From: Gammaproteobacteria bacterium
GTDB lineage: Bacteria > Pseudomonadota > Gammaproteobacteria > Pseudomonadales > Halieaceae
Direction: 5' to 3'
NCBI GenBank assembly: GCA_030428835.1
Contig: JAUIEP010000036.1
Coordinates: forward strand, 1 to 35,660
DNA: 35,660 nucleotides
A model generated the notes under the pieces. It had not been told where the DNA came from. It worked only from the letters and a program-made list of their open reading frames with translations, and did no database searches. Positions 14,751-35,660 of the stretch are shown piece by piece. Every line of letters starts with the position of its first letter. The first letter of the stretch is position 1. Both the position numbers and the translations under genes were made by a program.

Positions 14751-15995
14751 TTACACCGCCGCGGCGGACCGGCAGACCTGGGCCAGGACGTCCAGCCTGC
14801 GCTCGCTGGCGGCGACATAGGGATTGGTCTCGTCCCAGGCATAGCCGGCCAGGATGGACGCGATCATCGCCCTGATCTCGGCGCGCTGGTTCTTGTGGAA
14901 AATCACATCCTGGAGCCGCTGATCGTACCAGGCCGTGACGAAGGTGCGGAAACTGTCGACCCCGACCATGAGCGGTTCGGCGAAGTCCCGCTGCCAGTCC
15001 ACGGTCTCACCCCGCAGCTGGCGATCGACCAGGTCGGCGGCCATGCTGGCGGAACGCATGGCGATGGTGACACCGGACGAGAAAACCGGGTCGAGAAACT
15101 CCCCGGCGTTGCCCAACAAGGCGAAGTTCGGCCCATGCAGGGTGCTGACCTTGGCGGAATACCCGGTGATCTCACGCACGGGGAAGTCGTACTCGGCGTT
15201 CGCGAGCAATTCCGCAAGGTCCGGCTCGTCGGCAATGATGGCCCGCAACCGGTCGACCAGTTCGCCCGTGTAGCGGGACACGAACGACTGCTCCGCCACC
15301 ACGCCGATGGATGCGCGGCCGCCGCCGAAGGGAATGAGCCAGAACCAGACATCACGGTCCGTTGGGTGCACGGTGATGAGAATCTTGTTGCGATCGAACC
15401 AGTGCGCATCGATATGGTCGACCACGTGGGTAAAAATGGCCTGGCGCACCGGGAAGTTCGAGGGCTTGTGCAGGTCGAGCAACCTCGGCAAGACCCGCCC
15501 GAAACCACTGCCGTCGAGCAGGAAATCGGCCTCAACCGCGCCCTCCTCGCCCGCCGCGTCCCGGAAGGTGACACGGGCCCGGGGGCCGCCTACATCGACA
15601 GCCGTGATTTCATGCTCGTAGCGCACGTCGGCGCCCATGCGCGCGGCCTCGTCCGCGAGTATCTTGTCGAAGGTGGCGCGCTCCACCTGGTAGGTGGTAC
15701 CCCAACCCGGGGAGAATTTCTCGCGAAAGTCGATCTCGGTGTAGTCGCCCTTGTGCAGGAAAGCCGCGCCGTTCTTGTACTGGAAGCCGGCGGCATGCAC
15801 GGCGGCCAGCATGCCGGCTTCCTCGATGTACTGCATACACTGGGGAAGCAGGCTCTCGCCAATGGAGAAGCGGGGGAATGTTTCCTTCTCGAGGACACGC
15901 ACGCTATAGCCGCGACGCACCAACAGGGCCGCGGCGATGGCGCCGCTCGGCCCGGCACCGATTACAAGTACGTCGACCGAATCTGTCGCGGTCAT
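14751..15995 (-). CDS. Flavin-dependent halogenase-like FAD oxidoreductase of the pigment cluster
   Basis: The 414-residue FAD enzyme has GAGPSG at residues 13-18 and a PRFSIGESLLP segment. The four marks of flavin halogenases are present: a Lys at residue 74 in FQYKNG, WFWLIP (217-222, the WxWxIP motif) and FLDPVFSSG (300-308, the FxxPxxSxG motif), with the dinucleotide motif making the fourth. It could halogenate the aryl or resorcinol ring of the pigment. Related cluster proteins are often called simply FAD-dependent oxidoreductases, so an oxidation or reduction of the polyene is the alternative. It is shorter than most halogenases (about 500 aa). ATG at 15995 has GGGGAG five bases upstream. 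It has its own promoter region with a palindrome. Confidence 0.85.
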   Translation of the reverse strand: MTATDSVDVLVIGAGPSGAIAAALLVRRGYSVRVLEKETFPRFSIGESLLPQCMQYIEEAGMLAAVHAAGFQYKNGAAFLHKGDYTEIDFREKFSPGWGTTYQVERATFDKILADEAARMGADVRYEHEITAVDVGGPRARVTFRDAAGEEGAVEADFLLDGSGFGRVLPRLLDLHKPSNFPVRQAIFTHVVDHIDAHWFDRNKILITVHPTDRDVWFWLIPFGGGRASIGVVAEQSFVSRYTGELVDRLRAIIADEPDLAELLANAEYDFPVREITGYSAKVSTLHGPNFALLGNAGEFLDPVFSSGVTIAMRSASMAADLVDRQLRGETVDWQRDFAEPLMVGVDSFRTFVTAWYDQRLQDVIFHKNQRAEIRAMIASILAGYAWDETNPYVAASERRLDVLAQVCRSAAAV

Positions 15996-16034
15996 AAGTC
16001 TCCCCGGTTCAGGCAAGAGTCGTCTGGAAATAGA

Positions 16035-16053
16035 ATGATGACACGTTCATCAT
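16035..16053. promoter_or_regulatory. Inverted repeat operator candidate before the halogenase-like gene
   Basis: ATGATGA-CACGT-TCATCAT is a perfect 7+5+7 inverted repeat. It covers most of the candidate -10 box on the minus strand, so a protein bound here would block or position RNA polymerase. It lies 40 bases upstream of the ATG at 15995. No regulator gene is evident next to it except the small HTH-like protein at 20848. Confidence 0.5.
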
Positions 16054-16076
16054 ATAAGCAGCGTGATTATAATCAA
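16049..16076 (-). promoter_or_regulatory. Candidate promoter for the halogenase-like gene
   Basis: Read on the minus strand, TTGATT (16076-16071) and TATGAT (16054-16049) are separated by 16 bases. The region is AT-rich against a GC-rich background. The -35 box lies within the end of the upstream GT2-acyltransferase gene. Transcription would start near 16042. The promoter suggests that the FAD enzyme can be expressed apart from the genes above it. Confidence 0.45.
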
Positions 16077-17824
16077 TCGATCCGCGTTTCCGCCAAACTG
16101 CCGGCACCTGCCCCCGAGGTATCCGAACCGGGCGGCGGCGCCCAGAAATCGTAAAAGTTGAACCACTGCTCCGGCGCCATCTGCGCATAATGCTGCAGGC
16201 GCAGGGCATAGCGGGTAATGTGCTCGCGCAGCAACCGGGCGCGCCGCGCCCGCGGCATGGCCATGTTGTCGGAGAATTGTTCAATAAAAAAATGGTACTT
16301 GCCGCGCCGCAGGCAGAACACCAGCAGCACCGGGCACTGCAGCAGGCCCGCAAGCACGAACGCGCCCTGCGGGAACGAGGCGTCGTGGCCCAGGAACGGC
16401 ACGCGCACCGATTTTTCCGGCGCCGTGGGCGAGGTCCTGTCGGCGGCGATGACGACGAATTCCCCGGCCGCCACTTTTTCCTTGAGCAGGATGGCCGTGC
16501 CCGGATCCACCGCGGTGATCGGTATCAACTCGATATCCGAATCCGGGTTGATCTTCTTCATGACGCGGTTGATGCTCTGCGCGTTCGCGGCGAACACCAG
16601 CACATTGATTTTGATACCCGGTGAGCTTCCCGCCATCGCGCGCAGCAGCTCAATATTACCCAGGTGAGAGCTCAGCAGCACCGCGCCCTGCTGCCGCTCC
16701 ATCAGCTCGAGCAGGTGTTCGCGACCGTTGTAGATGATTTGCTCGCGGTTGATATCGCCCTTCCACGAACCCACCCGGTCGACAATCGAGCGCCCAAAGC
16801 TCATGAAATGGTCGAAGCAGTCTTTCAGCCCCGGCGCCGGTGCCCCTGCCCCTTGCTCAAAAGCGCGCACGCGGGAGAGGAACTGGCGCGAGGCGGCCCG
16901 CGCCTGGCCGTTGCGCAGGAAAAAATAGCCTATGACGGGGTAGAGCAACAGGTAGAGTCCACGGCGGCCGATCAGGCGATAGGCGACGGCCATCAGCCAC
17001 ATACCGACATAGGCGCCGCTTTCACGTATCTGGGACCAGTGGGCCGCTGACCCGGCGTCCTCGCGATGGGCGCGCCGCTGTCGCAACAACATTGGAATCC
17101 GCAGCGGCATACCCAGTACCAGTTTCGTGTGCATGAGGGTGATACGCGCGTTGTCGGCCAGCGGCGCAAAATTCGAGATGCCGTTTTCCGGGTAGGACAC
17201 ACGGCTGCGCAGGAAGCGCACCGGCACACCTCGCCAGTACAGCCGCACCATGATGTCCGTGTCGAAGTCCATGCGGCGCCCGATCGGGTGCTCGCGGGCG
17301 AGATCGTCGCTGGCCGCCACCGGGTAGACGCGGAACCCGCACATGGAATCGACGATCGCGGTGGACAGCGTTTCAACCCAGACCCAGAAATGCGTGATAT
17401 AGCGCCCGTACAGGCGCGATCTCGGCACGCTGTCATCGTAGATCGGCGCCGCGCTCACCAGGGCCCCGGGCTCCGCGCGGGATAGCTCGAGCAGCGCCGG
17501 TATGTCTTCCAGCGCGTGTTGGCCGTCGGCGTCCACCTGTACCGCATGGCTGTAGCCGAGCTCGCGCGCCCAGGCGATGCCGGTCAGTGCCGCCACCCCC
17601 TTGCCGCGATTTTCCGGCAGCCGGCGCAACGCAAGCCACGGTTCACGCGCGACCAGGGCGTCAAGCACCTCGGCGGTGGCAGCGTCGCTACCGTCGTCGA
17701 CTATCAGGCAGGGCAAACCGAGGTCGCGCAGGCGCTCGATCGTGGCGCCTATCAGGGGTCCCTGGTTATAGATTGGAATCAGCAGGCATGGCTTGTGCGC
17801 AGCGGGCTCGGCGTGACCTTCCAT
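16073..17824 (-). CDS. Glycosyltransferase family 2-lysophospholipid acyltransferase fusion
   Basis: The 583-residue protein joins two domains. Residues about 10-250 are a GT2 nucleotide-sugar transferase with LLIPIYNQ, IVDDGSD and the metal-binding VDADGQH. A hydrophobic stretch (MWLMAVAYRLIGRRGLYLLLYPVIGYFF) leads into a LpxL/HtrB-like acyltransferase, with the catalytic pattern H-x4-E in SSHLGNIE and RVPFLGHDASFPQG further on. Such fusions are a regular member of aryl polyene clusters. The role is probably to attach a sugar or acyl group to the pigment lipid at the inner membrane. It lies nine bases after the ApeP-like gene and is its operon partner. Confidence 0.9.
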   Translation of the reverse strand: MEGHAEPAAHKPCLLIPIYNQGPLIGATIERLRDLGLPCLIVDDGSDAATAEVLDALVAREPWLALRRLPENRGKGVAALTGIAWARELGYSHAVQVDADGQHALEDIPALLELSRAEPGALVSAAPIYDDSVPRSRLYGRYITHFWVWVETLSTAIVDSMCGFRVYPVAASDDLAREHPIGRRMDFDTDIMVRLYWRGVPVRFLRSRVSYPENGISNFAPLADNARITLMHTKLVLGMPLRIPMLLRQRRAHREDAGSAAHWSQIRESGAYVGMWLMAVAYRLIGRRGLYLLLYPVIGYFFLRNGQARAASRQFLSRVRAFEQGAGAPAPGLKDCFDHFMSFGRSIVDRVGSWKGDINREQIIYNGREHLLELMERQQGAVLLSSHLGNIELLRAMAGSSPGIKINVLVFAANAQSINRVMKKINPDSDIELIPITAVDPGTAILLKEKVAAGEFVVIAADRTSPTAPEKSVRVPFLGHDASFPQGAFVLAGLLQCPVLLVFCLRRGKYHFFIEQFSDNMAMPRARRARLLREHITRYALRLQHYAQMAPEQWFNFYDFWAPPPGSDTSGAGAGSLAETRID

Positions 17825-17833
17825 GAGTGGACG

Positions 17834-18271: not shown

Positions 18272-18335
18272 TCGATCGCTCCGGCTGACAAATAAGGCCG
18301 GTAGTGTAAAGGATGGCGACAGGCAAGGCGACGTA

Positions 18336-18341
18336 TATAAT
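18336..18341 (+). promoter_or_regulatory. Candidate -10 box of the DAR operon
   Basis: A perfect TATAAT lies 27 bases before the ApeI-like start at 18368, in the 96-base divergent gap. No good -35 match is 16-18 bases upstream, so activation by a protein would be needed. A similar TATAAATGGC sequence occurs at 28566 in front of the radical SAM gene. Confidence 0.3.
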
Positions 18342-18367
18342 GGCCTCCCCACAGCGCGAACCTCCCC

Positions 18368-18679
18368 ATGAGCCTCACCCCCATCGAGCTTTGCATCGAC
18401 GCCGCGCACCCGGCGCTGCCCGGCCATTTTCCCGGTCACCCCGTTGTGCCGGGTGTGGTGCTGCTCGACCGCGTGGTCACGGCCCTGGCCGAGCGCGATA
18501 TTGCCGTGACGGGAGTGCGCAAGCTCAAATTTCTCGTGCCCGTGCAACCCGGGCAGGCGCTGCAGCTACAGCTCGGCGAACCCGGGGGCGACAGCCTGCG
18601 TTTCAAGCTGGTCGAGCCGGTGTCACAGGCCGTGCTCGCGGAGGGCAACCTCGACCTGACGCCGCGTGGCGAGGCCTGA
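18368..18679 (+). CDS. ApeI-like hotdog dehydratase
   Basis: The 103-residue protein has the FabA/FabZ-type active-site motif HFPGHPVVPGVVLLD near residues 20-34. This loop holds the catalytic His of hotdog dehydratases. Length is close to the short ApeI proteins, which are known to pair with ApeP as a heterodimeric dehydratase. Here the ApeI-like and ApeP-like genes are divergent neighbours, so co-expression and pairing are likely. It is the first gene of the rightward dar unit, and DarA follows after 61 bases. Confidence 0.85.
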   Translation: MSLTPIELCIDAAHPALPGHFPGHPVVPGVVLLDRVVTALAERDIAVTGVRKLKFLVPVQPGQALQLQLGEPGGDSLRFKLVEPVSQAVLAEGNLDLTPRGEA

Positions 18680-18740
18680 TGACGCGTGGCATAATCGCCC
18701 CACCCGGCGCGCCGGGACCATCGGGAAAGAATTGATTTTA

Positions 18741-19694
18741 ATGGAAAAACGCGTACTCATTGTCCACTTCAGCCAGTCCGGCCAGCTGCATGACGTGGTG
18801 CGCTCCGTGGCCGCTGCACTGGAGGCGAGCGACGCGATCGAGGTCACCCACGAACTGCTCAGGCCACAGTCCGACTACCCCTTCCCCTGGCCGTTTTTCC
18901 GCTTCTTCGACACCTTTCCCGAGACGGTGCACGCCGATCCGGAGCCCATCCTGCCCCTCTCGGACGCCTGCCGCGCGCGCTACGACCTCGTCATCCTCGC
19001 CTACCAGGTGTGGTTCCTGTCGCCCGCCCAGCCGATCACCGCGTTCCTGGATTCACCCGAGGCGCCGGGACTGCTGCGCGACACCCCGGTGATCACGCTG
19101 ATCGCCTGCCGCAACATGTGGCTCATGGCGCAGGAGACAATGAAGCAGCGACTGGAGGCACTGGGCGCACGACTGATCGACAACATCGTGCTGACTGACC
19201 CCGCGCTGAGCGGCCTCACATTCTTCTCCACACCCATGTGGGTGCTGACCGGAAACAAGGGTCCATGGCTGGGCGGCCTCATACCGGAGGCTGGGGTAAC
19301 TCCCACGGATATCGCGCGCGCGAGCCGCTTCGGCGACGCGATTGCGCGACAACTGCCGCACCGGGAGGCCGGTGACTCCGGCCCCATGCTGGCCGGCCTC
19401 GGTGCGGTCACCGTCAACGAAAAACTCATCGCCTCGGAACGCATCGCCATTCGCAGCTTCCGCATCTGGGGCAGCCTGCTGCGCCTGCTCGGCAAGCCGG
19501 GGAGCCCCCTGCGCCGCCTCGTGCTGGTTGTGTATATCCTGTTCCTTGTAACGATGATCCTCACCGTCGTACCGGTCACGGCCCTGCTCAAGGCACTGTT
19601 CAAGCCGCTGCTGCGCGAGCGCATCGCCGCGCAGCGCCGCTATTACTCCGCGCCCTCGGGCGAGGATTTTTCCCTGGCTGCGGCGGCAAAATGA
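18741..19694 (+). CDS. darA: DarA-like dialkylresorcinol-forming enzyme (flavodoxin fold)
   Basis: The 317-residue protein starts with a flavodoxin-like strand and loop (VLIVHFSQSGQ) that would bind FMN phosphate. The middle holds LVILAYQVWFLSPAQPITAFL, and the C-terminus has one membrane helix (LVLVVYILFLVTMILTVVP). This is the architecture of DarA, which oxidises the cyclohexanedione made by DarB to an aromatic dialkylresorcinol. The stop codon overlaps the DarB start by four bases (19691-19694), as expected for partners. ATG at 18741 is used; an in-frame start at 18666 would overlap the preceding gene. Confidence 0.88.
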   Translation: MEKRVLIVHFSQSGQLHDVVRSVAAALEASDAIEVTHELLRPQSDYPFPWPFFRFFDTFPETVHADPEPILPLSDACRARYDLVILAYQVWFLSPAQPITAFLDSPEAPGLLRDTPVITLIACRNMWLMAQETMKQRLEALGARLIDNIVLTDPALSGLTFFSTPMWVLTGNKGPWLGGLIPEAGVTPTDIARASRFGDAIARQLPHREAGDSGPMLAGLGAVTVNEKLIASERIAIRSFRIWGSLLRLLGKPGSPLRRLVLVVYILFLVTMILTVVPVTALLKALFKPLLRERIAAQRRYYSAPSGEDFSLAAAAK

Positions 19695-20842
19695 GCAACA
19701 GGCCGGTCTACATAACGGACGTCACCGCGTTCCTGCCGGGCGCGCCCGTCGACAACGACGACATGGAGCGCCTGCTCGGCCAGGTGGGCGAGCGCCCCTC
19801 GCGCGCCCGGCGCGCCATCCTGCGCTCCAACGGCATCACGAGCAGGCACTACGCCGTCGACCCCCGGACCCTGCAACCCACGCACAACAACGCGCAGATG
19901 ACCGCCGAGGCGGTGCGCAAGCTGGACGGCCGCAGGATCGCGCTGGCCGACATCGAGTGCCTTGCCTGCGGCACCTCCATGCCGGACCAGCTGCTACCCA
20001 ACCACGCGTCCATGGTGCAGGGCGAGTTGGGCCTGCCGCACCTCGAGGCGGTGGCGACCTCGGGCGTCTGCGCGAGCAGCATGGCGGCACTGAAGTACGC
20101 GTATATGGCGGTGCGTTCCGGACTGCACGGCACCGCGGTGGCCACGGGCTCGGACCGCTCCTCCGCGATCATGCACGCACGCCACTTCAGTGGCGAGCTG
20201 GAGGGCGCCGCCGAGCAGCTCGATAAACGCCCCGAACTCGCCTTCGAGAAAGACTTCCTGCGCTGGATGCTGTCGGACGGCGCCGGGGCGATGCTGCTAC
20301 AGGACACGCAGGCGGACAACGGGCTGTCCCTGGAGATCGACTGGCTCGAGATGCGCTCCTACGCGGGCGAAATGGAAGCGTGCATGTACGCCGGCGCGCA
20401 GAAGCGGGACAACGGCACGCTGCGCGGCTGGCAGGACTTCGCCGTGGGGGAGCTCGCCGCCGACTCGGTCATGGCGATCAAGCAGGACGTCAAGCTGCTG
20501 AACGAGAACATCGTGCGTTACACCGTGGAGCGGCCGCTCGCGGATATCAGCGCGCGGCACGCTCTCGACGCGCGCGACATCGACTGGTTCCTGCCGCACT
20601 ATTCCTCCGAATTCTTCCGCGACAAACTCGCCGCGGGACTGTCGGCCGTCGGCCTCGACATTCCCATGGAGCGCTGGTTCACCAACCTCACCTACCGAGG
20701 CAACACCGGGGCCGCGTCGATGTACCTGATGCTGGAGGAGCTGTTTCACTCCGGCCGGCTCAAGCCCGGTGAGCGACTGCTGTGCTACGTACCCGAGAGC
20801 GGGCGCTTCTCCACGGCCTTCCTTCACCTGACGGTCAGGTAA
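19691..20842 (+). CDS. darB: DarB-like ketosynthase III (dialkylresorcinol cyclase)
   Basis: A thiolase-fold KAS III-type protein of 383 residues. The catalytic triad is readable: Cys127 in TSGVCASS, His303 in LPHYSSEFF and Asn338 in YRGNTGAAS. DarB joins two beta-ketoacyl thioesters and closes the ring to a dialkyl cyclohexanedione, which DarA then aromatises. The gene begins within the last bases of darA and is followed by the small HTH-like gene five bases later. A KAS III starting fatty-acid chains is the alternative, but the DarA partner makes DarB strongly favoured. Confidence 0.92.
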   Translation: MSNRPVYITDVTAFLPGAPVDNDDMERLLGQVGERPSRARRAILRSNGITSRHYAVDPRTLQPTHNNAQMTAEAVRKLDGRRIALADIECLACGTSMPDQLLPNHASMVQGELGLPHLEAVATSGVCASSMAALKYAYMAVRSGLHGTAVATGSDRSSAIMHARHFSGELEGAAEQLDKRPELAFEKDFLRWMLSDGAGAMLLQDTQADNGLSLEIDWLEMRSYAGEMEACMYAGAQKRDNGTLRGWQDFAVGELAADSVMAIKQDVKLLNENIVRYTVERPLADISARHALDARDIDWFLPHYSSEFFRDKLAAGLSAVGLDIPMERWFTNLTYRGNTGAASMYLMLEELFHSGRLKPGERLLCYVPESGRFSTAFLHLTVR

Positions 20843-20847
20843 AGCGC

Positions 20848-21261
20848 GTGCGCGAGGACGAGGTCCCCCAGGACGCGGATAACAGCACCTACGGCGGCAG
20901 CCGCAAATTGCTCTACGCCCAGTCCGGCGACGGCAATTTCGTTGGCGTGAAGTCCGCGGGGTGGGACGTCGAGGCCGAGGCCACCCGCATGGCACTGGAG
21001 TTGCTGGAACGCCAGTGCGAGCAGAGCTGGGACCGCGCCACGCGCGGCGTCAGCGCGCCGCTGGAGTACTACATGGCCTATCGCCGCATGGACGTCGCAC
21101 TGCTCGCGCAGACGGCCGGCATGGCCCGGTGGCGCGTGCGCCGGCACCTGCGGCCACGGGTCTTCGCGAAACTGCCGCAGCGCATCCTCGCCCGCTACGC
21201 GCAGGCACTGGAGCTGCCCGTGGAGCAACTGCGCACACTGCCCGAAGCGCCACTGACGTGA
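20848..21261 (+). CDS. Small HTH-like protein of the DAR operon
   Basis: The 137-residue protein has no family I can name. Residues about 79-131 resemble a Xre/Cro-type helix-turn-helix (RMDVALLAQTAGMARWRV, then ILARYAQALELPVEQLRTLP), a pattern of two helices, turn, recognition helix and scaffold helices. The N-terminal half (STYGGSRKLLYAQSGDGNFVGVKSAGWDVE) is of unknown role. Start GTG at 20848 has AGGT upstream. The stop overlaps the next gene's GTG start (GTGA), so it is translationally coupled to the BtrH-like gene. It could regulate the cluster or be a structural accessory; neither is shown. Confidence 0.7.
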   Translation: MREDEVPQDADNSTYGGSRKLLYAQSGDGNFVGVKSAGWDVEAEATRMALELLERQCEQSWDRATRGVSAPLEYYMAYRRMDVALLAQTAGMARWRVRRHLRPRVFAKLPQRILARYAQALELPVEQLRTLPEAPLT

Positions 21262-22250
21262 CCGGCTTCGAACACCGCCAGTCGGCACACTGCGAAAGCG
21301 GTGTCATGTCCTCGCTGCTGACACACCACGGATTGCCCACCACCGAGCCGATGGCATTCGGCCTCGGCGCGGCGCTCGCGTTTGCCTACGTGCCTTTCAT
21401 CAAGCTGTCGGGTATGCCCCTCATCGGCTATCGGATGCCGCCGCGCCATATCATCAGGGGCCTGTCCAAGCGCCTCGCCATCAGGATGAAAACGCAGACC
21501 TTCCGCGACGCCGACGCGGGGATGGCCACGCTGGACCGCCTGCTGGACGAGGGAAGAGTGGTGGGCCTGCAGACCTCCGTCTACTGGCTGCCCTATTTCC
21601 CCGAGACCATGCGCTTTCACTTCAACGCGCACAACCTCATCGTCTACGGTCGCGAGGGGGGCGAGTACCTGGTGAGCGACCCGGTCTTCGAGGAACCCGT
21701 GCGCTGCGACGCCGCCGCATTGAAGAAGGCGCGCTTCGCCAAGGGTGCACTCGCCGCCCGCGGCCTGCTGTACTACCCGACGCAGGTTCCCGCGACGTTC
21801 GATCTCGAGCGCGCGGCGCGCGGCGCCATCCGGGCCAATGATCGCTACATGACCGGCGCACCACTTCCGGTCATCGGTATTCGAGGTATCCGTTACCTGG
21901 GCAAGACCATCAGGAAGCTGGCGGCGAACGACAGCCGGCGCGAGACCTACCTGCCGCACTACCTGAGCCATATCGTGCGGATGCAGGAGGAGATCGGCAC
22001 AGGCGGGGCGGGCTTCCGCTTCATGTACGCCTCCTTCCTGCGCGAAACGGCAAACACGATCCGCAGCGACCTGCTGGCCGAGGCTGCCGAACTGCTGGCC
22101 GAGGCCGGCGATCACTGGCGCATGTTCGCACTGACCAGCAGCAAGATGTGCAAGGGGCGCAGGCCGCTGGACGGCGACGAACTCGCGCGCCAACTCAACG
22201 TCTGTGCCGACCAGGAGGCCGCCACCTGGCGACTGTTACAACGGTTCTAG
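21258..22250 (+). CDS. BtrH-like acyltransferase with Cys-His-Asp triad
   Basis: The 330-residue protein has a BtrH N-terminal domain. It begins FEHRQSAHCESG, which places a Cys nucleophile at residue 12. His125 in FNAHNLIVYG and Asp141 in VSDPVF complete a papain-like triad. BtrH in butirosin synthesis transfers an acyl group from an ACP onto an amino-sugar. By analogy this protein could move the aryl polyene acyl chain from ACP to the dialkylresorcinol hydroxyl, making the ester of flexirubin-like pigments. That role is inference. The GTG start overlaps the preceding gene by four bases. The 3' end overlaps the convergent gene at 22247 by four bases. Confidence 0.82.
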   Translation: MTGFEHRQSAHCESGVMSSLLTHHGLPTTEPMAFGLGAALAFAYVPFIKLSGMPLIGYRMPPRHIIRGLSKRLAIRMKTQTFRDADAGMATLDRLLDEGRVVGLQTSVYWLPYFPETMRFHFNAHNLIVYGREGGEYLVSDPVFEEPVRCDAAALKKARFAKGALAARGLLYYPTQVPATFDLERAARGAIRANDRYMTGAPLPVIGIRGIRYLGKTIRKLAANDSRRETYLPHYLSHIVRMQEEIGTGGAGFRFMYASFLRETANTIRSDLLAEAAELLAEAGDHWRMFALTSSKMCKGRRPLDGDELARQLNVCADQEAATWRLLQRF

Positions 22251-24264: not shown

Positions 24265-24530
24265 GCGCCGGAGTCTTCTACGATCGTCTCCGCGAGCGCA
24301 CGCACGGAGGCGAGCGCCCTGCGCGCTTCCGGGCCGCCCTCGATACGCACGCCGTAGGTTTCCTTCACCGCCATACAGATCTGCAGTGCGTCGAGGGAGT
24401 CGAGGTCCAGGGGACCGCCGATAAGCGCTTCATCGGTTTCGATAGCATCCGGCGAGCAATCCTTGTCGCACTCCGCGATGATCATTTCTTTCAGGGCCGG
24501 GATCAGCTCGTCCACCGCGGCAGCGCTCAT
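24261..24530 (-). CDS. Acyl carrier protein
   Basis: An 89-residue ACP. The phosphopantetheine attachment serine is Ser45 in LDLDSLDA, the usual DSL motif. The flanking four-helix pattern and net negative charge fit. It carries growing acyl chains for the adjacent KS and CLF-like proteins. It is 12 bases after the ABC permease gene and overlaps the KS start, so all are read together. Confidence 0.94.
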   Translation of the reverse strand: MSAAAVDELIPALKEMIIAECDKDCSPDAIETDEALIGGPLDLDSLDALQICMAVKETYGVRIEGGPEARRALASVRALAETIVEDSGA

Positions 24531-28659: not shown

Positions 28660-30150
28660 ATGGATGATCGGCGCATAGTACTTGTCACCCCCCCTTACGA
28701 GCGCATCGCGAAGGGCTACGAGTACGTCAAGCACATTACCAACGCCTCGCCGTCGCTCGGTCTCCTGCACCTGGCGGCCGAGGTGCGCGAGTTCGGCTAT
28801 GAGCCGTCGATCATCGAGAGCGATATCTTCGACATGACCATCGACGAGGTGGTGGACGACATCGCAAACGCGCGACCGGCCTACGTCGGTATCACGTTGT
28901 TCACCGTCGGCGTCTGGTGCGCCGCCGAGATGGCGCGCAAGATCAAGCTGCGCCTGCCTGGCACCACCGTCATCGTCGGCGGCCCGCATATCTCCTCCAT
29001 GGGCAAGGAAACGATGGAACGCTTCCGCGAGTTCGACTTCGCCATCAACGGCGAGGGCGAGGAAGCGCTGGTGGCCCTGCTCGACTGCCTGCGCACCGGC
29101 GGCGACCTGGCGACGGTCCCGGCACTGCTGTATCGCGACGACACGGACATCACGCCGCGCATCCTCGAAACACCGAAGCTCGCGATCAACAAGGACCTCG
29201 ACCGGCTGCCGATACCCGCCTGGGACCTGTTGCCTGACTTCCCGAATGCCTATCGCCCCGCGGTGTACGACTTCCCGCGCCAGCCGGTGGCCTCCATCGC
29301 CGTGTCCCGCGGCTGTCCGTTCCACTGCAAGTTCTGCGACACCTCCACGTTCGGCGCCAGCGTGCGCGCCTACAGCCCGGCTCGCGTCGTGGAGATCATC
29401 GAGCACCTGCAGGAGACCTACGGCATCAAGCACATCCTGTTCGTCGACGACCTGTTCACCGCGAGCAGGAAACGCACGACGGAAATGTGCAACCTGATCA
29501 TCGAGAAGAAGCTCGACATCACCTGGAGCTGCGCCAGCCGCGTCGACGTGGTGAAACCGGACACCCTGGAGCTGATGAAAAAGGCGGGGTGCTGGGAAAT
29601 CAGCTTCGGGCTCGAGTCGGGTTCGGACGACCTGCTGCGACAAATGGACAAGTCGGCATCGATCGAGAAGTCACGCCAGGCGCTGGAGTGGACCCACGCC
29701 GCCGGCATTCGCAGCAAGGGCCTGTTCATGCTCGGCTACCCCGGTGAAAACCTCGACACGATCGAACAGACCAAGCGCTTCCTGAAGCAGGTGCCGCTCA
29801 CCATCATGCACCTGACCAAGTTCACGCCCTACCCCGGCTCGCCGATCTACCGCGATCTCTACGGCACCAACATACGCGACGATCACTGGGAAAAAATGAA
29901 CGGCATGAACTTCCTGTGGACCCCGGAAGACCTGACACAGGAACAGCTCGACAGCAATTACCGCAAGGTGTTGATGAGCTTCTACCAGACGCCGCGCATA
30001 ACGTGGTACTACACCAAGTTCACGCTGCGCCACCCGCGACACTTCCTGAGACTGTTGGCGTTCTTCGGCCTGTTCCTGCGCGCGAAGCTGCGTGAGCGTC
30101 TCCAGGTCGCCACCGGCGTCGCGCCGCAGGCGTCCCCCACACTCGACTAA
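28660..30150 (+). CDS. B12-binding domain radical SAM protein
   Basis: The 496-residue protein has an N-terminal cobalamin-binding-like Rossmann domain (IVLVTPPYE, then VGITLFTVG, IVGGPHIS and INGEGEEAL). A radical SAM core follows, with the iron-sulfur triad Cys219, Cys223 and Cys226 in CPFHCKFC. The Gly-rich HLTKFTPYPGSPIY and FMLGYPGE segments fit the barrel. The last about 60 residues are basic and hydrophobic. Such enzymes often methylate unactivated carbons or rearrange rings, using cobalamin and SAM. The substrate is unknown; a tailoring role on the polyene or resorcinol is inferred from location. The start ATG has AGGA upstream. Confidence 0.9.
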   Translation: MDDRRIVLVTPPYERIAKGYEYVKHITNASPSLGLLHLAAEVREFGYEPSIIESDIFDMTIDEVVDDIANARPAYVGITLFTVGVWCAAEMARKIKLRLPGTTVIVGGPHISSMGKETMERFREFDFAINGEGEEALVALLDCLRTGGDLATVPALLYRDDTDITPRILETPKLAINKDLDRLPIPAWDLLPDFPNAYRPAVYDFPRQPVASIAVSRGCPFHCKFCDTSTFGASVRAYSPARVVEIIEHLQETYGIKHILFVDDLFTASRKRTTEMCNLIIEKKLDITWSCASRVDVVKPDTLELMKKAGCWEISFGLESGSDDLLRQMDKSASIEKSRQALEWTHAAGIRSKGLFMLGYPGENLDTIEQTKRFLKQVPLTIMHLTKFTPYPGSPIYRDLYGTNIRDDHWEKMNGMNFLWTPEDLTQEQLDSNYRKVLMSFYQTPRITWYYTKFTLRHPRHFLRLLAFFGLFLRAKLRERLQVATGVAPQASPTLD

Positions 30151-30171: not shown

Positions 30172-31395
30172 CTAGCAGCGCCGGAAGACCAGTGACGTGT
30201 TGATCCCGCCGAAGGCGAAGTTGTTCGACATCGCGATTTCGATGTCCAGTTCGCGGCCGTTGCCGGTGATGTAGTCGAGGTCGGCGCACGCCGGGTCCAG
30301 GTTGTCGAGGTTCAGTGTCGGGTGGAACCAGCCCTCGCGCATCATGTTGATCGTTGCCATCGCCTCGAGCGCGCCGCACGCGCCCAGCGTGTGGCCTATG
30401 TAGCTCTTCATCGCACTGATCGGCATGGCGTCGCCCAGCATGCGCGCGGTGGCGTGGCTCTCCGCGATGTCGCCGCGATCGGTCGCCGTGCCGTGCGCGC
30501 TCACATAGCCGATGTCGGGGGCCGCCACCCCGGCGCCCTCCAGCGACATCTGCAGCAGTCGGCATATCGACTCGAGGTCGGGCTGCGTCACGTGCATACC
30601 GTCAGAGTTGGTGGCGTACCCCAGCACTTCCGCGTAAATCGTGGCCCCGCGCGCCTTCGCATGCTCCATGTCCTCGAGGATCAGGGTGCCGGCTCCCTCG
30701 CCGATGACCAGGCCGTCGCGATCCTTGTCGAACGGTCGCGGCGTCGACGAGGGCGCATCGTTCCTGGTCGACGTGGCGTACAGGGTGTCGAACACCGCGG
30801 CTTCGGTGGGGCACAATTCCTCGGCGCCGCCGCAGATCATCACCGTCTGCAGGCCGTGATGGATGGCGTCGTAGCCGTAACCGATGCCCTGGCTGGACGA
30901 GGTGCAGGCGCTTGACGTCGTGTAGACGCGCCCCTTGACGCCGAAGAACACGCCGATGTTCACGGGCGCGGTGTGGCTCATCATGCGGATGTAGCTCGAG
31001 GCGTTCAGGCCGTCGGTACGCTTGTTGATCAGCATGTTGCCGAAATCGGCGACAGCGGAGGTGCTGCCCGCGGAACTGCCGTAGGAGATGCCGGTAGCGC
31101 CGCTGCCGAGTACGGGATCGCCCAACAGGCCCGCATCTTCCAGCGCCAGTTCCGTCGCGCGGGTCGACATCAGGGCGACACGGCCCATTGTGCGGACCTG
31201 CTTGCGGCCGTAGTGGGCGGGCTTCTCGAAATCGTTGATGGGTCCGGCAAGCCTGGTGAACAGACCCTCGTACTCGCCCCACTCGTCCATGCGCACGATG
31301 GCGTTTTCCGTCCGCCTCAGCCGCGCGCTGATGGCCTCCCAGTCGTGTCCGAGGGCGGAGATCGCCCCCATACCGGTAACAACGACACGCCGCAT
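30172..31395 (-). CDS. apeR: ApeR-like beta-ketoacyl-ACP synthase
   Basis: A 407-residue KAS II-type condensing enzyme. The nucleophile is Cys164 in SSACTSSS. The two His sit in SAHGTATD and YIGHTLGAC. It elongates acyl-ACP chains. It is the last gene of the leftward KS-DH-KR-KS run, the arrangement of apeO-P-Q-R in known aryl polyene clusters; there ApeR is a separate KS important for starting the chain. ATG at 31395 is used; its first base abuts the ketoreductase stop (TGATG arrangement). A hairpin GGCGCT-AGC-AGCGCC overlaps the stop codon. Confidence 0.9.
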   Translation of the reverse strand: MRRVVVTGMGAISALGHDWEAISARLRRTENAIVRMDEWGEYEGLFTRLAGPINDFEKPAHYGRKQVRTMGRVALMSTRATELALEDAGLLGDPVLGSGATGISYGSSAGSTSAVADFGNMLINKRTDGLNASSYIRMMSHTAPVNIGVFFGVKGRVYTTSSACTSSSQGIGYGYDAIHHGLQTVMICGGAEELCPTEAAVFDTLYATSTRNDAPSSTPRPFDKDRDGLVIGEGAGTLILEDMEHAKARGATIYAEVLGYATNSDGMHVTQPDLESICRLLQMSLEGAGVAAPDIGYVSAHGTATDRGDIAESHATARMLGDAMPISAMKSYIGHTLGACGALEAMATINMMREGWFHPTLNLDNLDPACADLDYITGNGRELDIEIAMSNNFAFGGINTSLVFRRC

Positions 31396-32120
31396 CAGCA
31401 CAGTCCGCCGTTGACGGAAATCACCTGGCGCGTAATGTAACCGGCCTCGTCGCTGAGGAGGAAGCGCACGACGGCGGCCACCTCCTCGGGTTGGCCGAGG
31501 CGCTGCATGGGAATGGACTTGGTGATCATGTCGACCGGGGCATCCTCGAGCATCTCGGTTTCTATCAGCCCCGGCGCCACGCAATTGACGGTGATCCTGC
31601 GCTTGGCGAGCTCTATGGACAGGGCTTTCGTAGCGCCAATGATACCAGCCTTGGCCGCGGAATAATTGACCTGGCCACGGTTGCCGATGAGGCCGGAGAC
31701 AGAGGCCATGGTGACGATACGGCCGCCGGTCCGGCGCCGCACCATCGGCATGATGATCGGGTTGAGCACGTTGTAGAAGCCGTCGAGGTTGCTGTGCACC
31801 ACGGCATCCCAGTCGTCGCCGCTCATGGCGGGAAAGGCATTGTCGCGAGCGAGCCCGGCATTGCAGACCACGCCGTAGTAGGCCCCGTGCGCGTCCATGT
31901 CCTGGGTAACGGCCGCTGCCGCCGCCGACCGGTCGGCGATATCGAACTGCAGGATGCGCGCACTGCCGCCGGCCGCCTCGACAGTGGACTGCACCTCCTG
32001 TGCCCGCTCCATGCCCGAGCGACAGTGCAATACGACAGGGTAGCCCGCGGCGGCGAGGTCGAGCGCGACTGCGCGCCCGATGCCCCGGCTGGAGCCCGTC
32101 ACCAAAACCGTCTTATCCAT
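31395..32120 (-). CDS. apeQ: ApeQ-like 3-oxoacyl-ACP reductase (FabG type)
   Basis: A 241-residue SDR with the cofactor motif TGSSRGIG, CNAG, catalytic Ser in MASVSG and YSAAKAG, and a C-terminal VNGGLC close to FabG. The Arg in CRSG after the second strand suggests NADPH. It reduces the beta-keto group on ACP in each polyene cycle before dehydration. It lies 25 bases after the ApeP-like dehydratase and abuts the KS downstream. Confidence 0.92.
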   Translation of the reverse strand: MDKTVLVTGSSRGIGRAVALDLAAAGYPVVLHCRSGMERAQEVQSTVEAAGGSARILQFDIADRSAAAAAVTQDMDAHGAYYGVVCNAGLARDNAFPAMSGDDWDAVVHSNLDGFYNVLNPIIMPMVRRRTGGRIVTMASVSGLIGNRGQVNYSAAKAGIIGATKALSIELAKRRITVNCVAPGLIETEMLEDAPVDMITKSIPMQRLGQPEEVAAVVRFLLSDEAGYITRQVISVNGGLC

Positions 32121-32145
32121 GGCGCGCCATCACCCGCTTCGCGTT

Positions 32146-32601
32146 CTACCCGGCCTGCCAACCGGTCGTTTTCAGGTAGGCCGCGAAGTCCTCCGGCTCA
32201 TAGGCCTTGACCCTCGCGGACTGCTTAATGCCGGGGCCCTCGACGGCGCAGTCAAACACCACCACGCTGTCCTTGCCCTGCACCAGCGGGTGCACGGTGA
32301 CCCTCAGGGAGGTGCCACAGGGAAAACTTGAGACGTTGGTCTGGAACTTGCGGGTTCCCAGCAGGAGGCCGATTTTAATGTCCCGGCCTGCGCGCTGCAA
32401 ACCGGAAAAGGCGGAGACCGCCTGCGCCATGTACTCGATACCGAGCATGGCGGAGACACTTCCCGCCTCGTCGAACAGCCCGTCGTCCCGCACCGTCAAC
32501 TCGCATACCAGCTCATCGGCGCCGGCGCTGACGATCCTGTCCAGCAGCGACAGGTCGCCCCGGTGCGGCACGACGTCCGCGATCGCCAGGCCGTCAGTCA
32601 C
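32146..32601 (-). CDS. apeP: ApeP-like 3-hydroxyacyl-ACP dehydratase (second copy)
   Basis: A 151-residue hotdog protein with VVPHRGDLSLLDRI as its active-site region and MLGIEYMAQAVSAFSG as the central helix. It matches the ApeP type and removes water from the beta-hydroxyacyl-ACP. GTG at 32601 with GGAG upstream is chosen over an ATG at 32628, which lacks support and would enlarge the overlap with the KS. The overlap with the upstream KS is eight bases. A second ApeP-like protein is encoded at 17834-18271. Confidence 0.87.
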   Translation of the reverse strand: MTDGLAIADVVPHRGDLSLLDRIVSAGADELVCELTVRDDGLFDEAGSVSAMLGIEYMAQAVSAFSGLQRAGRDIKIGLLLGTRKFQTNVSSFPCGTSLRVTVHPLVQGKDSVVVFDCAVEGPGIKQSARVKAYEPEDFAAYLKTTGWQAG

Positions 32602-33781
32602 GCGCGCGCTCCAGGACCAGCGCGACATTGCTGCCGCCGAACGCGAAGGAATTGCTCATGCAGTAGTCCGGGCGGCTGTCGCGGTAGTCGTTGTCGCCCG
32701 CCAGGTGAATCGCGGGCAGGTCGGGGTCGCGCTCATCGAGGTACAGCGAGGGCGGCAGGCGCCAGCGATAGTCCTCGCCCGCCAGCAGCAGCCAGCAGAA
32801 CGCGAGTTCGAGCGCCCCGGACGCCCCCAGGGTGTGGCCGGTGAGCGGTTTCGTCGTACTCACGGGCGTGGCGCCGCCGAACAGCCGGAAAATCGCCTTG
32901 CTCTCCATGGCGTCGTTGTGCGGCGTGCCGGTGCCGTGGGCATTCAGGTAGTCGATCGCCGCGGGCTCCAGCCCTGCGTCCTCCAGGGCGCCCGCCATCG
33001 CCCGGAACGCCCCCTCGCCCTCGGGGTGGGGGGCCGAGATGTGATGGGCGTCGGAGCTGGCGCTCCCGCCCGCCAGGCGCGCACCGCCCGGTTCGCGGGT
33101 CAGCAGGAAAACCGCGGCCGCCTCGCCGATATTGATGCCGTCGCGCCTTCCCGTGAACGGCGCGCTGTAGTCCGCGGCCAGCGCTTCCAGCGCGCCAAAA
33201 CCCTCCAGCGTCATGCCGCACAGCGTGTCCACGCCGCCGACCACGACCGCATCGGCCAGGTCCAGCTCGAGTAACCGCCGGGCACTCAACAGCGCTGCCG
33301 CACTCGAGGAGCAGGCCGTCGATACGGTAGATACCGGGCCGGCCGTACCCAGGTAGGCCGCCACAAACTCGCCGAGTCCGCCCAGGGTGGCCTGCGCCAT
33401 GGCGTAGCCGGGAGGGTGCGCGCCCGATTCGTTGAACGTGCGCACCGCACGCTCCGAGGCATTGATGCCGGTCGTACTGGTGCCCATCACCACCGCCACA
33501 CGGCGGCGCCCGTAACGGGCCAGCGCGCCGTCGACAGACGCGCGAATCTGCTCCAGCGCCAGCGCGCCCAGGCGATTGTTCTCGCAATCATAGGCGGCAA
33601 GCTGGGCGGGCAGTTCCGGCAGTGCGCAGTGCAGCGCGCCGACATACCTGTTGCCGCGCCGGGTCAGCAGCTGGCGTGGATCCGGCACCGCCGCATCGCG
33701 GGTCAGCAGGTTGGCCCGCACCTGGGCGGCGTTGGCGCCGAGCGTGCAGAGGATGCCCAGGTCATTGAGGTAGTAGGTCAT
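32594..33781 (-). CDS. apeO: ApeO-like beta-ketoacyl-ACP synthase
   Basis: A 395-residue KAS II-type synthase with Cys157 in VSTACSSSA, His in LNAHGTGTP and His in LTGHTLGASG. In known aryl polyene systems the KS at this position (ApeO) works with a chain-length-factor partner to extend the polyene. The start at 33781 overlaps the upstream DUF3261 gene by 20 bases; an earlier start at 33826 would deepen the overlap. It is followed by the ApeP-like gene in the same run. Confidence 0.91.
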   Translation of the reverse strand: MTYYLNDLGILCTLGANAAQVRANLLTRDAAVPDPRQLLTRRGNRYVGALHCALPELPAQLAAYDCENNRLGALALEQIRASVDGALARYGRRRVAVVMGTSTTGINASERAVRTFNESGAHPPGYAMAQATLGGLGEFVAAYLGTAGPVSTVSTACSSSAAALLSARRLLELDLADAVVVGGVDTLCGMTLEGFGALEALAADYSAPFTGRRDGINIGEAAAVFLLTREPGGARLAGGSASSDAHHISAPHPEGEGAFRAMAGALEDAGLEPAAIDYLNAHGTGTPHNDAMESKAIFRLFGGATPVSTTKPLTGHTLGASGALELAFCWLLLAGEDYRWRLPPSLYLDERDPDLPAIHLAGDNDYRDSRPDYCMSNSFAFGGSNVALVLERARD

Positions 33782-34319
33782 GCTGCTCCAGCCATTGGAC
33801 CGACAGGATAGTGCCGGCACCGGCATCGTTCAATCGCGCCTCGCGGTACCAGGGCGGCTCGCCCTCGTATTCGATGGCAATGACTGGTTCACCCTCGTCC
33901 CGGTGGAACGAGCGACCGCTGTCAGTGACGCGCAGCGACCAACCCGGGTTCAACTGGCGCTCCAGTTCCGCGGGTGTGCCGTACATCAACAGCAGCGCGC
34001 GGACCAGTTCATCGGCGCCCGGTTCGCCCTGCCCCGCCAGTTTGTTGGCCACGGTACGTGCCCCGCCCTGCACCAGGACGCGATACAGCGGCACGGCCTG
34101 TGGCGTCACCACGGCCAGCTCGAGGACAGCGCCGTCTGTGCGCAGCGCCAGCAGGAATGTCCGCGCCGGGGAGCCGGGGCTCCGATAGTGCAGCACACCG
34201 CTGCGCTCGGTGGCCGAACCCAGCCCCAGGTAGGCATCGTCGTCCAGCGGCAGCGGGCGCAACGCCGCACAGGCGCTGCAACACAGCACGAGCAGCACTG
34301 CCGGGAACAGCCTGCTCAT
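33762..34319 (-). CDS. DUF3261-domain lipoprotein of the aryl polyene cluster
   Basis: The 185-residue protein has a short hydrophobic N-terminus with a Cys at the end (VLLVLCCSACAALRP), close to a lipobox although the residue at -3 is not typical. The mature part resembles the DUF3261 lipoproteins that accompany aryl polyene genes. It begins in a four-base overlap with the MMPL gene. A role in delivering the pigment lipid to the outer membrane is plausible by analogy with LolB-like carriers. It ends inside the start of the KS gene. Confidence 0.82.
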   Translation of the reverse strand: MSRLFPAVLLVLCCSACAALRPLPLDDDAYLGLGSATERSGVLHYRSPGSPARTFLLALRTDGAVLELAVVTPQAVPLYRVLVQGGARTVANKLAGQGEPGADELVRALLLMYGTPAELERQLNPGWSLRVTDSGRSFHRDEGEPVIAIEYEGEPPWYREARLNDAGAGTILSVQWLEQHDLLPQ

Positions 34320-35660
34320 GTCGCGGTCTCCCGTTGCCAGTCGAGCCAGGACAGCGCGTAAGCCAGCGTCAGGCCGAGCGCGATGGATTTGCCGAACAGG
34401 CTGATCACCGGCGTGGAAGAAAAAGACAACATGCCGAACGCCAGGATGCTCGTGATCGCGGACAGCGCGATGGCAAGCGTGGTCGCGGCCTGCTCGCCGT
34501 CGGGCGTCAGGGCGCGGAACACCCCGTAGTCGAGACCGACACCGAACACCAGCAACAGGGCCATCAGGTTTACCAGCGAATACGCGCCCTGCCAGGCCAC
34601 GAGCAGCGCCAGGGATGTCACACAGGCGAGTAGCGGAACCACCAGGATGCGCAGGCCGACGGCGCTGCCCGCCAGCAACAGCAGCAGCACGGCGGCCGCC
34701 GCACCGGCCAGCAACAGCGTCCAGCCGACGGCGCCGCGGTAGGACGCGATATCGCGATTGATGCTCGCGATCGGGTCGGCAAGCTGTACGCCGCTGTGCG
34801 CGGCCACCACCCGCTCGAGCGCGGCGGCATCCGCTACCCCCGACAACCGCACCCAACTCGCGCACTCGCGCGCTTCACATCCGAGGAATCCCTCCACACC
34901 CAGCGGTAACTCGAGGTCGGCGAGCACCGACCAGTCCGCCGCGCCGGGCTCCGCCGCGATGGCCGCCAACACGCTCGCGCTGGACTGTGCGTCGAAACCG
35001 AGCGCATCCAGGTGTGCCGGTAACGTACCGTCGGCGACCAGCCCGCGCCACACGGCGCGGTTGGCGTCCTGCTGCCGGGCCGACGGCAGCACCTGCGCGA
35101 TCGCGCTGTAGCGTTCCAGTGCGCCGCGCGCGGACAGCGTCGCGAGGTCGGCAAGTAATGCCTCCTCGCGCGCGAGCAGCGCCTGCTCATCCCCCGCGCG
35201 CACCAACAGGAAGCGGCTGTCGGGACCACTGCCGGTGACGGCGCGGATGTGTTCCTCCGCCCGCGTCAGATCCTCCGGCGCGGCCGAAAACGCGCGCACA
35301 TCGTCCTCGGCGGGCGCCAACGCCAGCGCGGCGATCAACAACAGGGCGGCTCCGAGCAGGTAGCGCACCGGAAACGGCGAGCGCGGACGCGCGAGCGCGA
35401 ACAGCCCGGCGAGTGGTCGCGCCGCGGGCGCGCTGCGGTACAGCGCGGGAAACAGCAGGCACACGGTGGCGAAGCTCGCGAGCAGCCCGCTGGCCATGAA
35501 CACCCCCATCTGGCGGATACCCGGGAACGGCAGCAGCGCCAGCGCCGCAAAGGCCAGCGCGCTGCTCGCCACACCCAGGGCCAGTCCGCGCAGGACCTTG
35601 CCGAGTGCGGCGTCCGGCGTCCAGCCAGGCAGGCGCGAATGGGCCAGGTAGTGCAGCGCG
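34316..35660 (-). CDS. MMPL/RND-type exporter of the aryl polyene cluster (partial)
   Basis: The open frame runs off the right edge, so the 5' part is missing. The available 448 residues include two groups of membrane helices (for example VASSALAFAALALLPF, AVGWTLLLAGAAAAVLLLLLAG, ILVVPLLACVTSLALLVAW) separated by a large outside loop. VNLMALLLVFGVGLDYGVF is the DY-containing helix that carries the proton relay in MMPL proteins. Typical full length is 750-800 residues, so about half is present. It is the first visible gene of the leftward run and overlaps the DUF3261 start. Export of the pigment lipid is the usual proposal. Confidence 0.9.
   Translation of the reverse strand, partial: ALHYLAHSRLPGWTPDAALGKVLRGLALGVASSALAFAALALLPFPGIRQMGVFMASGLLASFATVCLLFPALYRSAPAARPLAGLFALARPRSPFPVRYLLGAALLLIAALALAPAEDDVRAFSAAPEDLTRAEEHIRAVTGSGPDSRFLLVRAGDEQALLAREEALLADLATLSARGALERYSAIAQVLPSARQQDANRAVWRGLVADGTLPAHLDALGFDAQSSASVLAAIAAEPGAADWSVLADLELPLGVEGFLGCEARECASWVRLSGVADAAALERVVAAHSGVQLADPIASINRDIASYRGAVGWTLLLAGAAAAVLLLLLAGSAVGLRILVVPLLACVTSLALLVAWQGAYSLVNLMALLLVFGVGLDYGVFRALTPDGEQAATTLAIALSAITSILAFGMLSFSSTPVISLFGKSIALGLTLAYALSWLDWQRETAT

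Follow-up and report, generated by a model that had tools for sequence, protein, structure and literature searches.

A predicted aryl polyene–dialkylresorcinol pigment cluster on two contigs of a gammaproteobacterial genome, and its cobalamin-binding radical SAM protein

INTRODUCTION

Contig JAUIEP010000036.1 (C32) carries genes of the aryl polyene (APE) and dialkylresorcinol (DAR) kinds together with a gene for a cobalamin-binding radical S-adenosylmethionine (SAM) protein, which raises the questions of whether these genes serve one pathway and what the radical SAM protein might contribute to it. The window, that is, the whole stretch of DNA that was analyzed, is the complete contig of 35,660 bp from a genome of 5.23 Mb in 319 contigs. 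An initial annotation had proposed a combined APE–DAR cluster to the right of 14.75 kb in a likely gammaproteobacterium, an assignment that holds in the sense of the GTDB, in which Gammaproteobacteria include the betaproteobacteria. We conclude with high confidence that positions 14751-35660 of the window and a second contig of the same genome, C295, form such a cluster, which the assembly has divided between two contigs. Its product is most likely a yellow-orange outer-membrane pigment, predicted from the genes to consist of an aryl polyene acid linked to a dialkylresorcinol.

RESULTS

The cluster in the window

The pigment genes extend from position 14751 to the end of the window (35660), contain most of the APE–DAR set, and lie in five blocks on alternating strands, the same five units that had been annotated. 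Block 1 (minus) contains the halogenase-like flavoprotein, a fusion of a family 2 glycosyltransferase (GT2) with an acyltransferase, and a weak ApeP-like dehydratase (DH); block 2 (plus), an ApeI/FabA-like DH, DarA, DarB, a DarD-like protein, and DarH; block 3 (minus), a ketosynthase (KS)-like protein without the catalytic Cys, a KS, an acyl carrier protein (ACP), the permease and ATPase of an ATP-binding cassette (ABC) transporter, and a methyltransferase; block 4 (plus), a hydrolase-like protein and the B12 radical SAM protein; and block 5 (minus), a KS, a FabG, an ApeP-like DH, a second KS, a DUF3261 protein, and an MMPL protein. Family calls are given as bit scores of Pfam or NCBIfam profiles relative to the cut-off of each model, and several matches are weak and flagged as such. 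Start codons are uncertain for several genes, and that of the MMPL gene lies off the contig. Read gene by gene, the families named in the initial annotation were recovered, some through weak matches:

14751-16016, minus: flavin-dependent halogenase-like protein (ArcA-like); PF04820, 86.6 versus 21
16073-17824, minus: GT2 glycosyltransferase fused to an LpxL-type acyltransferase; PF00535, 59.6, and PF03279, 44.9, both above cut-off
17834-about 18280, minus: ApeP-like hot-dog dehydratase, weak, start uncertain; PF22817, 24.1 versus 27 (below)
18368-18679, plus: short ApeI/FabA-like dehydratase; PF07977 (FabA-like), 24.5 versus 23; PF22818 (ApeI), 19.5 versus 28.5 (below)
18741-19694, plus: DarA, putative flavodoxin-like DAR-forming partner of DarB; from position and homologues, with a weak flavodoxin match
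19691-20842, plus: DarB ketosynthase; NF005293, 584.9 versus 450; StlD structures 5gk0/5gk2
20839-21261, plus: DarD-like conserved protein, start uncertain; no Pfam family above cut-off; homologue next to DarH in all 17 loci
21258-22250, plus: DarH, BtrH-type acyltransferase, thought to join the polyene acid and the DAR; PF14399, 171.6; PF16169, 169.3; NF053550, 468.1 versus 300
22247-23104, minus: KS-like protein without catalytic Cys (DarK position); no Pfam family; from alignment to other KSs
23101-24264, minus: KAS II-type ketosynthase (DarJ position); PF00109, 77.3, and PF02801, 81.3, above cut-off
24261-24530, minus: acyl carrier protein (DarC position); NF006617, 43.8 versus 70; PF00550, 19.1 versus 20.8 (just below); DSL site
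24543-25748, minus: ABC-2 transporter permease (DarI position); PF12698, 93.7
25750-26712, minus: ABC transporter ATPase (DarF position), start uncertain; PF00005, 97.9
26705-27628, minus: class I SAM-dependent methyltransferase; PF13649, 74.2
27734-28546, plus: membrane-anchored alpha/beta-hydrolase-like protein with a GHSCG motif; from the translation, Lipase match sub-threshold only
28660-30150, plus: cobalamin-binding radical SAM protein; PF02310, 65.4; PF04055, 99.5; CxxxCxxC at 219
30172-31395, minus: KAS II-type ketosynthase, APE core; NF006587, 694.3 versus 470
31395-32120, minus: FabG-type ketoreductase (KR); NF004200, 391 versus 273
32146-32628, minus: ApeP-like dehydratase; PF22817, 56.3 versus 27
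32594-33781, minus: KAS II-type ketosynthase, APE core; NF006618, 470.9 versus 407
33762-34319, minus: DUF3261 protein; PF11659, 35.6 versus 22.3
34316-35660, minus: MMPL-type exporter, C-terminal part only, cut by the contig end; 17.9 versus 20.5 (below)

None of the 22 genes has an internal stop, and the GC content is highest at the third codon position in all 22 (barely so in the ApeI-like open reading frame [ORF]). These two properties and the co-location of homologues in relatives argue that the genes are more than chance.

Contig C295

The aryl ligase, ACPs, and ammonia-lyase that the initial annotation had expected farther to the right are all found on C295. Searched for aromatic lyases, the genome gave one match, on this contig of 7,950 bp; at E 0.001 or better, no aromatic lyase or ApeI-like domain was reported from elsewhere in the genome. 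The genes of C295, all on one strand, are as follows:

End of a hydrolase-like ORF (reading of the translation)
Chain length factor (CLF) of the KS N-terminal type (PF13723)
Acyltransferase (PF01553)
Two ACPs (PF00550)
Membrane protein (reading of the translation; IspA, 23.3 versus 28.7, below)
AMP ligase fused to an ApeI-like domain (PF00501, PF13193, PF22818)
Aromatic ammonia-lyase (PF00221, 535 bits)
4HBT thioesterase
LolA-like protein
ORF running off the right end, putative first part of MMPL (no Pfam match)

The order of genes within each contig is read directly, and the join between the contigs is inferred: C295 and the window are very likely neighbors in the genome, because the MMPL gene appears to be split between them. 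When aligned with the MMPL protein (808 aa) of L031, a DarH locus of another genome, the terminal ORF of C295 covers residues 33-204 (29% identity) and the fragment in the window covers residues 354-780 (39%). No overlap between the ends of C295 and the window was found, and a gap of roughly 450 bp (about 150 residues) therefore probably separates them. On a single contig of L031, next to the DAR genes, the gene order is lyase (HAL), thioesterase, LolA, MMPL, halogenase-like protein, DH, KR, and KS. Further cluster genes probably lie past the MMPL gene on C295. With this linkage, which is taken from the split MMPL gene, an aryl ligase, ACPs, a KS with CLF, a KR, and ApeI/ApeP dehydratases occur together in the window and C295.

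Co-occurrence of DarH, DarB, and the APE-type ligase

The distribution of the key genes was determined in 369 genomes of the class, which include the genome studied here and are not independent in descent. The APE-type ligase, detected with a profile (A2) built from the C295 ligase and five relatives (threshold, E 1e-60 or better), was found in 85 of the 369 genomes, DarB (NF005293) was found in 25 at the same threshold (21 above the cut-off), and DarH (NF053550) exceeded its cut-off in 18, including our own, with three more weak matches. All 18 DarH genomes have both DarB and the ligase (Fisher p = 7e-13 for DarH and ligase; 3e-12 without our own genome). The ligase is present in 21 of the 21 genomes with DarB above the cut-off and in 0 of the 4 with DarB below it; DarH occurs in 18 of these 21 DarB- and ligase-containing genomes compared with none of the 4 ligase-free DarB genomes (p = 0.003). 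The restriction of DarH to genomes with both DarB and the ligase fits the prediction that DarH is a BtrH-type enzyme that esterifies the polyene acid to the DAR. No DarH was detected in 17 other genomes of the same genus, some of them incomplete, so that the cluster appears to be patchy.

The DAR block in relatives

Seventeen DarH loci from other genomes of the class were compared with the window. DarB, DarD, and DarH are co-located in all 17, and DarA lies beside DarB in 16, the remaining locus (L035) being cut by a contig end; the DarA-DarB pair is oriented away from DarD-DarH in two loci (L028 and L029). The part comprising the KS-like protein, KS, ACP, and ABC transporter is complete in 11 loci, cut by contig ends in 3 (L028, L031, and L037), and not seen in the stretch read in 3 (L038, L042, and L043), and homologues of the Cys-less KS-like protein are near DarH in 12. 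The window's DarB passes the StlD/DarB model, and its closest solved structure is StlD (447.8 bits). A combination like that of the window was also observed in another phylum: L116, a contig of an epsilonproteobacterial metagenome-assembled genome (MAG), has APE genes, DarB/DarD/DarH, the KS-ACP-ABC block, and the radical SAM gene all together. L044 and L045, read around the L024 and L025 matches, contain BtrH-type proteins with scores well under the cut-off for DarH, and no DarA or DarB match was obtained in the 20 kb read.

Several points weigh against our reading of the cluster, in addition to the shared descent of the sampled genomes. The pigment itself and its identity are predictions from genes. 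DarB missed the narrower model NF053539 (492.7 versus 550); we take this miss to bar the name DarB only and not membership in the StlD/DarB family, since the model is of the "exception" type. DarA exceeded the cut-off of no curated model, giving a weak flavodoxin match only, and a structure model made from two sequences was too poor to use (predicted local distance difference test [pLDDT], 52.1). Its homologues in plasmids, three Streptomyces records at 33% identity annotated as hypothetical protein, are of no help with naming. The contig link depends on one split gene in which about 150 residues are missing between the two pieces, and the part on C295 is only 29% identical (E 9e-8) to one relative among those tried. 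DarH is missing from three genomes with DarB and the ligase (G140, G234, and G257; 85%, 96%, and 82% complete), and it is thus not universal; either another enzyme would do the joining there or these genomes are incomplete. The initial view of DarA and DarB as true DAR enzymes is upheld in part: DarB passes the StlD/DarB model, though not the narrow one, and lies in a conserved gene neighborhood, and DarA is a putative DAR enzyme placed by that neighborhood.

Enzymes of the cluster

The three KAS II-type KSs (23101-24264, 30172-31395, and 32594-33781) all possess the active-site Cys and both His regions, which agrees with the three active enzymes that had been annotated. The accompanying Cys-less call for the KS-like protein (22247-23104) is less secure: Cys is missing at the aligned site, but the alignment is unsure there and a Cys is close by in NTVSNAACF. 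Likewise, two ApeP-like dehydratases and one ApeI-like dehydratase had been proposed, and only the ApeP-like protein at 32146-32628 is clear, with the second ApeP and the ApeI models staying below their cut-offs. A motif scan of the halogenase-like protein (14751-16016) detected GxGxxG, FPRxxIGES, FxxKxGAxF (with the loop Lys), and WxWxIP. We take the last three to be signatures of flavin-dependent halogenases, and the protein is predicted to be such an enzyme; its closest solved structures are 3nix and then CmlS.

The cobalamin-binding radical SAM protein

The protein encoded at 28660-30150 has a B12-binding domain, a radical SAM domain, and a CxxxCxxC motif. Its structure model (pLDDT, 89.7; predicted template modeling score, 0.88) has OxsB, MgmA, TsrM, AprD4, CysS, and TokK as Foldseek neighbors, of which several are methylases. 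The B12 domain, the motif, and a modeled fold like that of TsrM, CysS, and TokK are those expected of a C-methylase; AprD4 and OxsB, which we take not to be methylases, fit the fold equally well. From the fold neighbors, we favor C-methylation of the aryl polyene as the probable reaction, which is a guess. Among the best 25 of 37 NCBIfam families, no named subfamily exceeded its cut-off (ApyD, 192.8 versus 750; BchE, 178.8 versus 481). The hydrolase-like ORF directly before the gene (27734-28546) also matched no family above its cut-off.

Plasmids gave 265 records matching the radical SAM protein, all below 60% identity. In genome contigs, 76 loci were found, of which 65 (L065-L129) were examined and L130-L140, at 29% identity or less, were left out; 54 of the 65 are at 54% identity or more, and 11 are more distant. 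At least two kinds of APE genes are nearby in 15 of the 54 close loci, one of which (L095) also has DAR genes, and in L116 and L119 among the distant ones; L116 falls just under the 54% line and is counted as distant though it carries both APE and DAR genes. In another 31 of the 54, of at least 9 kb, no more than one kind of APE or DAR gene lies nearby, and the other 8, which are shorter than 9 kb and have at most one kind of APE gene, were placed in neither group. Among 72 of the 110 listed neighbor proteins from APE-poor loci, no Pfam family occurred more than twice.

The APE-type ligase was sought in 41 genomes with the radical SAM gene, a set that excludes our own genome and four positive controls (all with the ligase). 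Most of them were chosen because APE genes are absent beside the radical SAM gene, some of these genes are on short contigs, and five genomes belong to Thiodiazotropha or similar symbionts (L088, L089, L090, L092, and L129). The ligase was present in 32 of the 41 (27 of 30 and then 5 of 11), in most of which no APE genes adjoin the radical SAM gene. The nine misses are six Planctomycetota (0 of 6 with the ligase), one Nitrospinota MAG, G047, in which the radical SAM gene is present as a fragment at the end of a contig, and a gammaproteobacterial MAG (that of L084); four of the Planctomycetota, the Nitrospinota MAG, and L084 are the misses among the later 11. Nearby APE matches and the ligase test are not always in agreement, since L084, L100, and L103 lack the ligase yet have KS or other APE-type matches near the radical SAM gene, L103 being counted among the 15 above. 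The first 30 genomes yielded 27 ligase regions, of which 20 were fetched, those of the later 11 not being included; APE genes of at least four kinds are present in 18 of the 20 and of three kinds in the remaining two.

In the sample of the class, the ligase is present in 7 of 8 genomes with the radical SAM gene versus 78 of 361 others (p = 2e-4; 7e-4 without our own genome), and with ApeP as the marker the figures are 4 of 8 versus 40 of 361 (p = 0.009; 0.04 without our own). DarH accompanies the radical SAM gene in 4 of 8 versus 14 of 361 genomes (p = 2e-4; 0.003 without our own). Within the ligase-positive genomes, this association is weaker (4 of 7 versus 14 of 78; p = 0.03, or 0.09 without our own), which suggests that the radical SAM protein is associated more closely with APE than with DAR.

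Two further observations concern this family. Close relatives (60-65%) occur in the Planctomycetota of L078, L093, L094, L097, L103, and L114, which have no APE-type ligase, so that some members of the family may act on a different substrate. An FAD-dependent protein, about 31-35% identical to the halogenase-like protein of the window, adjoins the radical SAM gene in L054 (4631-7302), L065 (6561-9349), L069, L076, L083, and L087, and the two may act together.

The left part of the window

Ordinary genes occupy the window to the left of 14.75 kb (MsrA, PhoD, M48 and trypsin-like proteases, short-chain dehydrogenases/reductases [SDRs], and acyl-CoA dehydrogenases). Two acyl-CoA dehydrogenase genes and SnoaL-like and glyoxalase-like genes stand in a row at 10611-13789, with SDR genes nearby; as far as can be told, this row resembles a small catabolic operon outside the pigment cluster.

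DISCUSSION

From the gene content, we infer the following pathway. The aromatic ammonia-lyase would make a (hydroxy)cinnamate starter, which the AMP ligase fused to the ApeI-type dehydratase would load onto an ACP, and the FabF-type KSs with CLF, FabG, and the hot-dog dehydratases would extend it iteratively to the aryl polyene. In parallel, the KS and ACP proteins of block 3 would supply a beta-ketoacyl unit (ketoacyl-ACP) that DarB and DarA would convert to a 2,5-dialkylresorcinol, and DarH would acylate a hydroxyl of the resorcinol with the polyene acid. The halogenase-like flavoprotein, the methyltransferase, and the cobalamin radical SAM enzyme may tailor the product, and MMPL, LolA, DUF3261, the GT2-acyltransferase, and the ABC pair may place it in the outer membrane.

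The same genes could also be read as two pathways lying side by side and not joined, one for an APE lipid, with the acid placed on a sugar-lipid by way of the GT2-acyltransferase, and one for a free dialkylresorcinol. Homologues of the GT2/acyltransferase and of LolA and MMPL do occur in APE stretches in which no DAR gene was seen, and StlD, the relative of DarB, makes free products. However, the strict confinement of DarH to genomes with both DarB and the APE-type ligase (18 of 18) argues for a joined product, as does the precedent of flexirubin, which comes from a similar gene set and is described in PMC3992019 as a polyene ester of a DAR, and of arcuflavin, for which PMC3949708 proposes an ester from its fragmentation; we therefore consider two separate products unlikely. 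It is more improbable still that the cluster is decayed or silent and gives no product. Its patchiness within the genus would suit such a state, but none of the 22 genes is interrupted by a stop and all show the codon-position GC bias, and the catalytic residues of the three KSs, the serine of the ACP, and the radical SAM motif are all retained.

The role of the radical SAM protein is less certain than the joined pigment. We tentatively favor, with somewhat less than even confidence, a family of APE tailoring enzymes of the Gammaproteobacteria and some Campylobacterota that is often encoded away from its APE cluster and would modify the aryl polyene independently of O2, by adding a carbon substituent (in the likeliest case a methyl group) or in some other way; the Planctomycetota members would act on another substrate. 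Alternatively, the protein may be a neighbor with a general or different substrate and no APE enzyme, which is only slightly less probable. The 31 of 54 loci poor in APE and DAR genes, the lack of a recurrent neighbor family, the nine genomes without the ligase, including all six Planctomycetota and the Nitrospinota MAG, and the presence of DUF3261 in only 4 of 30 radical SAM genomes are in favor of this interpretation. Against it stand the ligase in 32 of 41 genomes in spite of the scarcity of adjoining APE genes, the richness in APE genes of 18 of the 20 ligase regions read, and the enrichment of the ligase in the class sample (7 of 8 versus 78 of 361). An earlier candidate, a general enzyme, was drawn from the scarcity of DUF3261 and of adjoining APE genes; it lost its place as first choice because DUF3261 was not found in G107 either, where the radical SAM gene adjoins APE and DAR genes, and because 27 of 30 genomes have the ligase. 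The lower rate among the later genomes (5 of 11) then shifted the balance slightly back, making the tailoring role a little less probable and its rival a little more so.

APE pigments are widespread bacterial secondary metabolites. The co-occurrence statistics make a case for DarH as a marker of APE–DAR ester pigments, which suggests that such pigments can be predicted from genomes. The radical SAM family is tied to APE genes across proteobacterial genomes and is often unlinked to them, so that it would easily be missed by cluster-based mining; if our tentative assignment to APE tailoring is correct, it points to a new chemical modification of APE pigments, and it is the part of most interest to specialists. 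In the accessible part of the open-licence literature searched, no report linking an aryl polyene or flexirubin to a radical SAM protein, cobalamin dependent or otherwise, was found, which is not proof of absence. APE pigments are also said, in PMC9259500, to be widespread in ocean bacteria.

Three known pigment systems can be compared with the cluster. The xanthomonadin and other APE clusters without DAR genes share with it the KS, CLF, KR, DH, ligase, ACP, MMPL, LolA, and GT2/acyltransferase. Unlike the predicted product here, xanthomonadins have no DAR moiety, according to PMC3949708.

The flexirubin flx/dar clusters of Chitinophaga pinensis and Flavobacterium johnsoniae resemble the present one in their start with an ammonia-lyase (FlxA, a tyrosine ammonia-lyase [TAL]) and a ligase (FlxY) and in their exporter set, as described in PMC3992019. 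Their hosts are Bacteroidetes, and in the main text of that paper the word "radical" occurs once, for a radical cation (PMC3992019). The lyase of C295 carries Gln in NQDKVSM, which would be the residue of the TAL or phenylalanine ammonia-lyase type in the motif 2 described in PMC3992019. Since, as is stated there (PMC3992019), sequence by itself does not reveal which substrate such a lyase uses, tyrosine as the substrate is a guess.

The closest parallel to the DAR block is the dar group of Azoarcus sp. BH72 (arcuflavin), which according to Table 1 of PMC3949708 comprises darA, darB, darD, a BtrH-like protein, an ABC pair, an ACP, a KS, and a hypothetical protein. All of these have counterparts here, as do the halogenase, exporter, LolA, KS, KR, DH, ligase, ACP, and methyltransferase of the arc genes (PMC3949708). 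The NCBI name DarH differs from the darH of that paper, which has a PilT domain; the BtrH-like protein there is darE. The Azoarcus genes are listed there in three groups (azo3910-3921, azo0253-0264, and azo0283-0293), whereas the DAR and APE genes are contiguous here, and the starter enzyme is a XanB2-type chorismatase in Azoarcus as opposed to an aromatic ammonia-lyase here (PMC3949708). The B12 radical SAM protein is an addition of the present cluster, the main text of the Azoarcus paper containing none of the terms "radical SAM," "cobalamin," and "B12" (PMC3949708). The make-up of the DAR block is, judging from its genes, close to that of the Azoarcus dar genes and not new, and the unusual gene, that of the radical SAM protein, is not named in the part of the initial annotation considered here. 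The cluster belongs to a known pigment class and, with an arcuflavin-like DAR block and a lyase and ligase start as in flexirubin, appears to combine both systems; its unusual part is the cobalamin-binding radical SAM protein.

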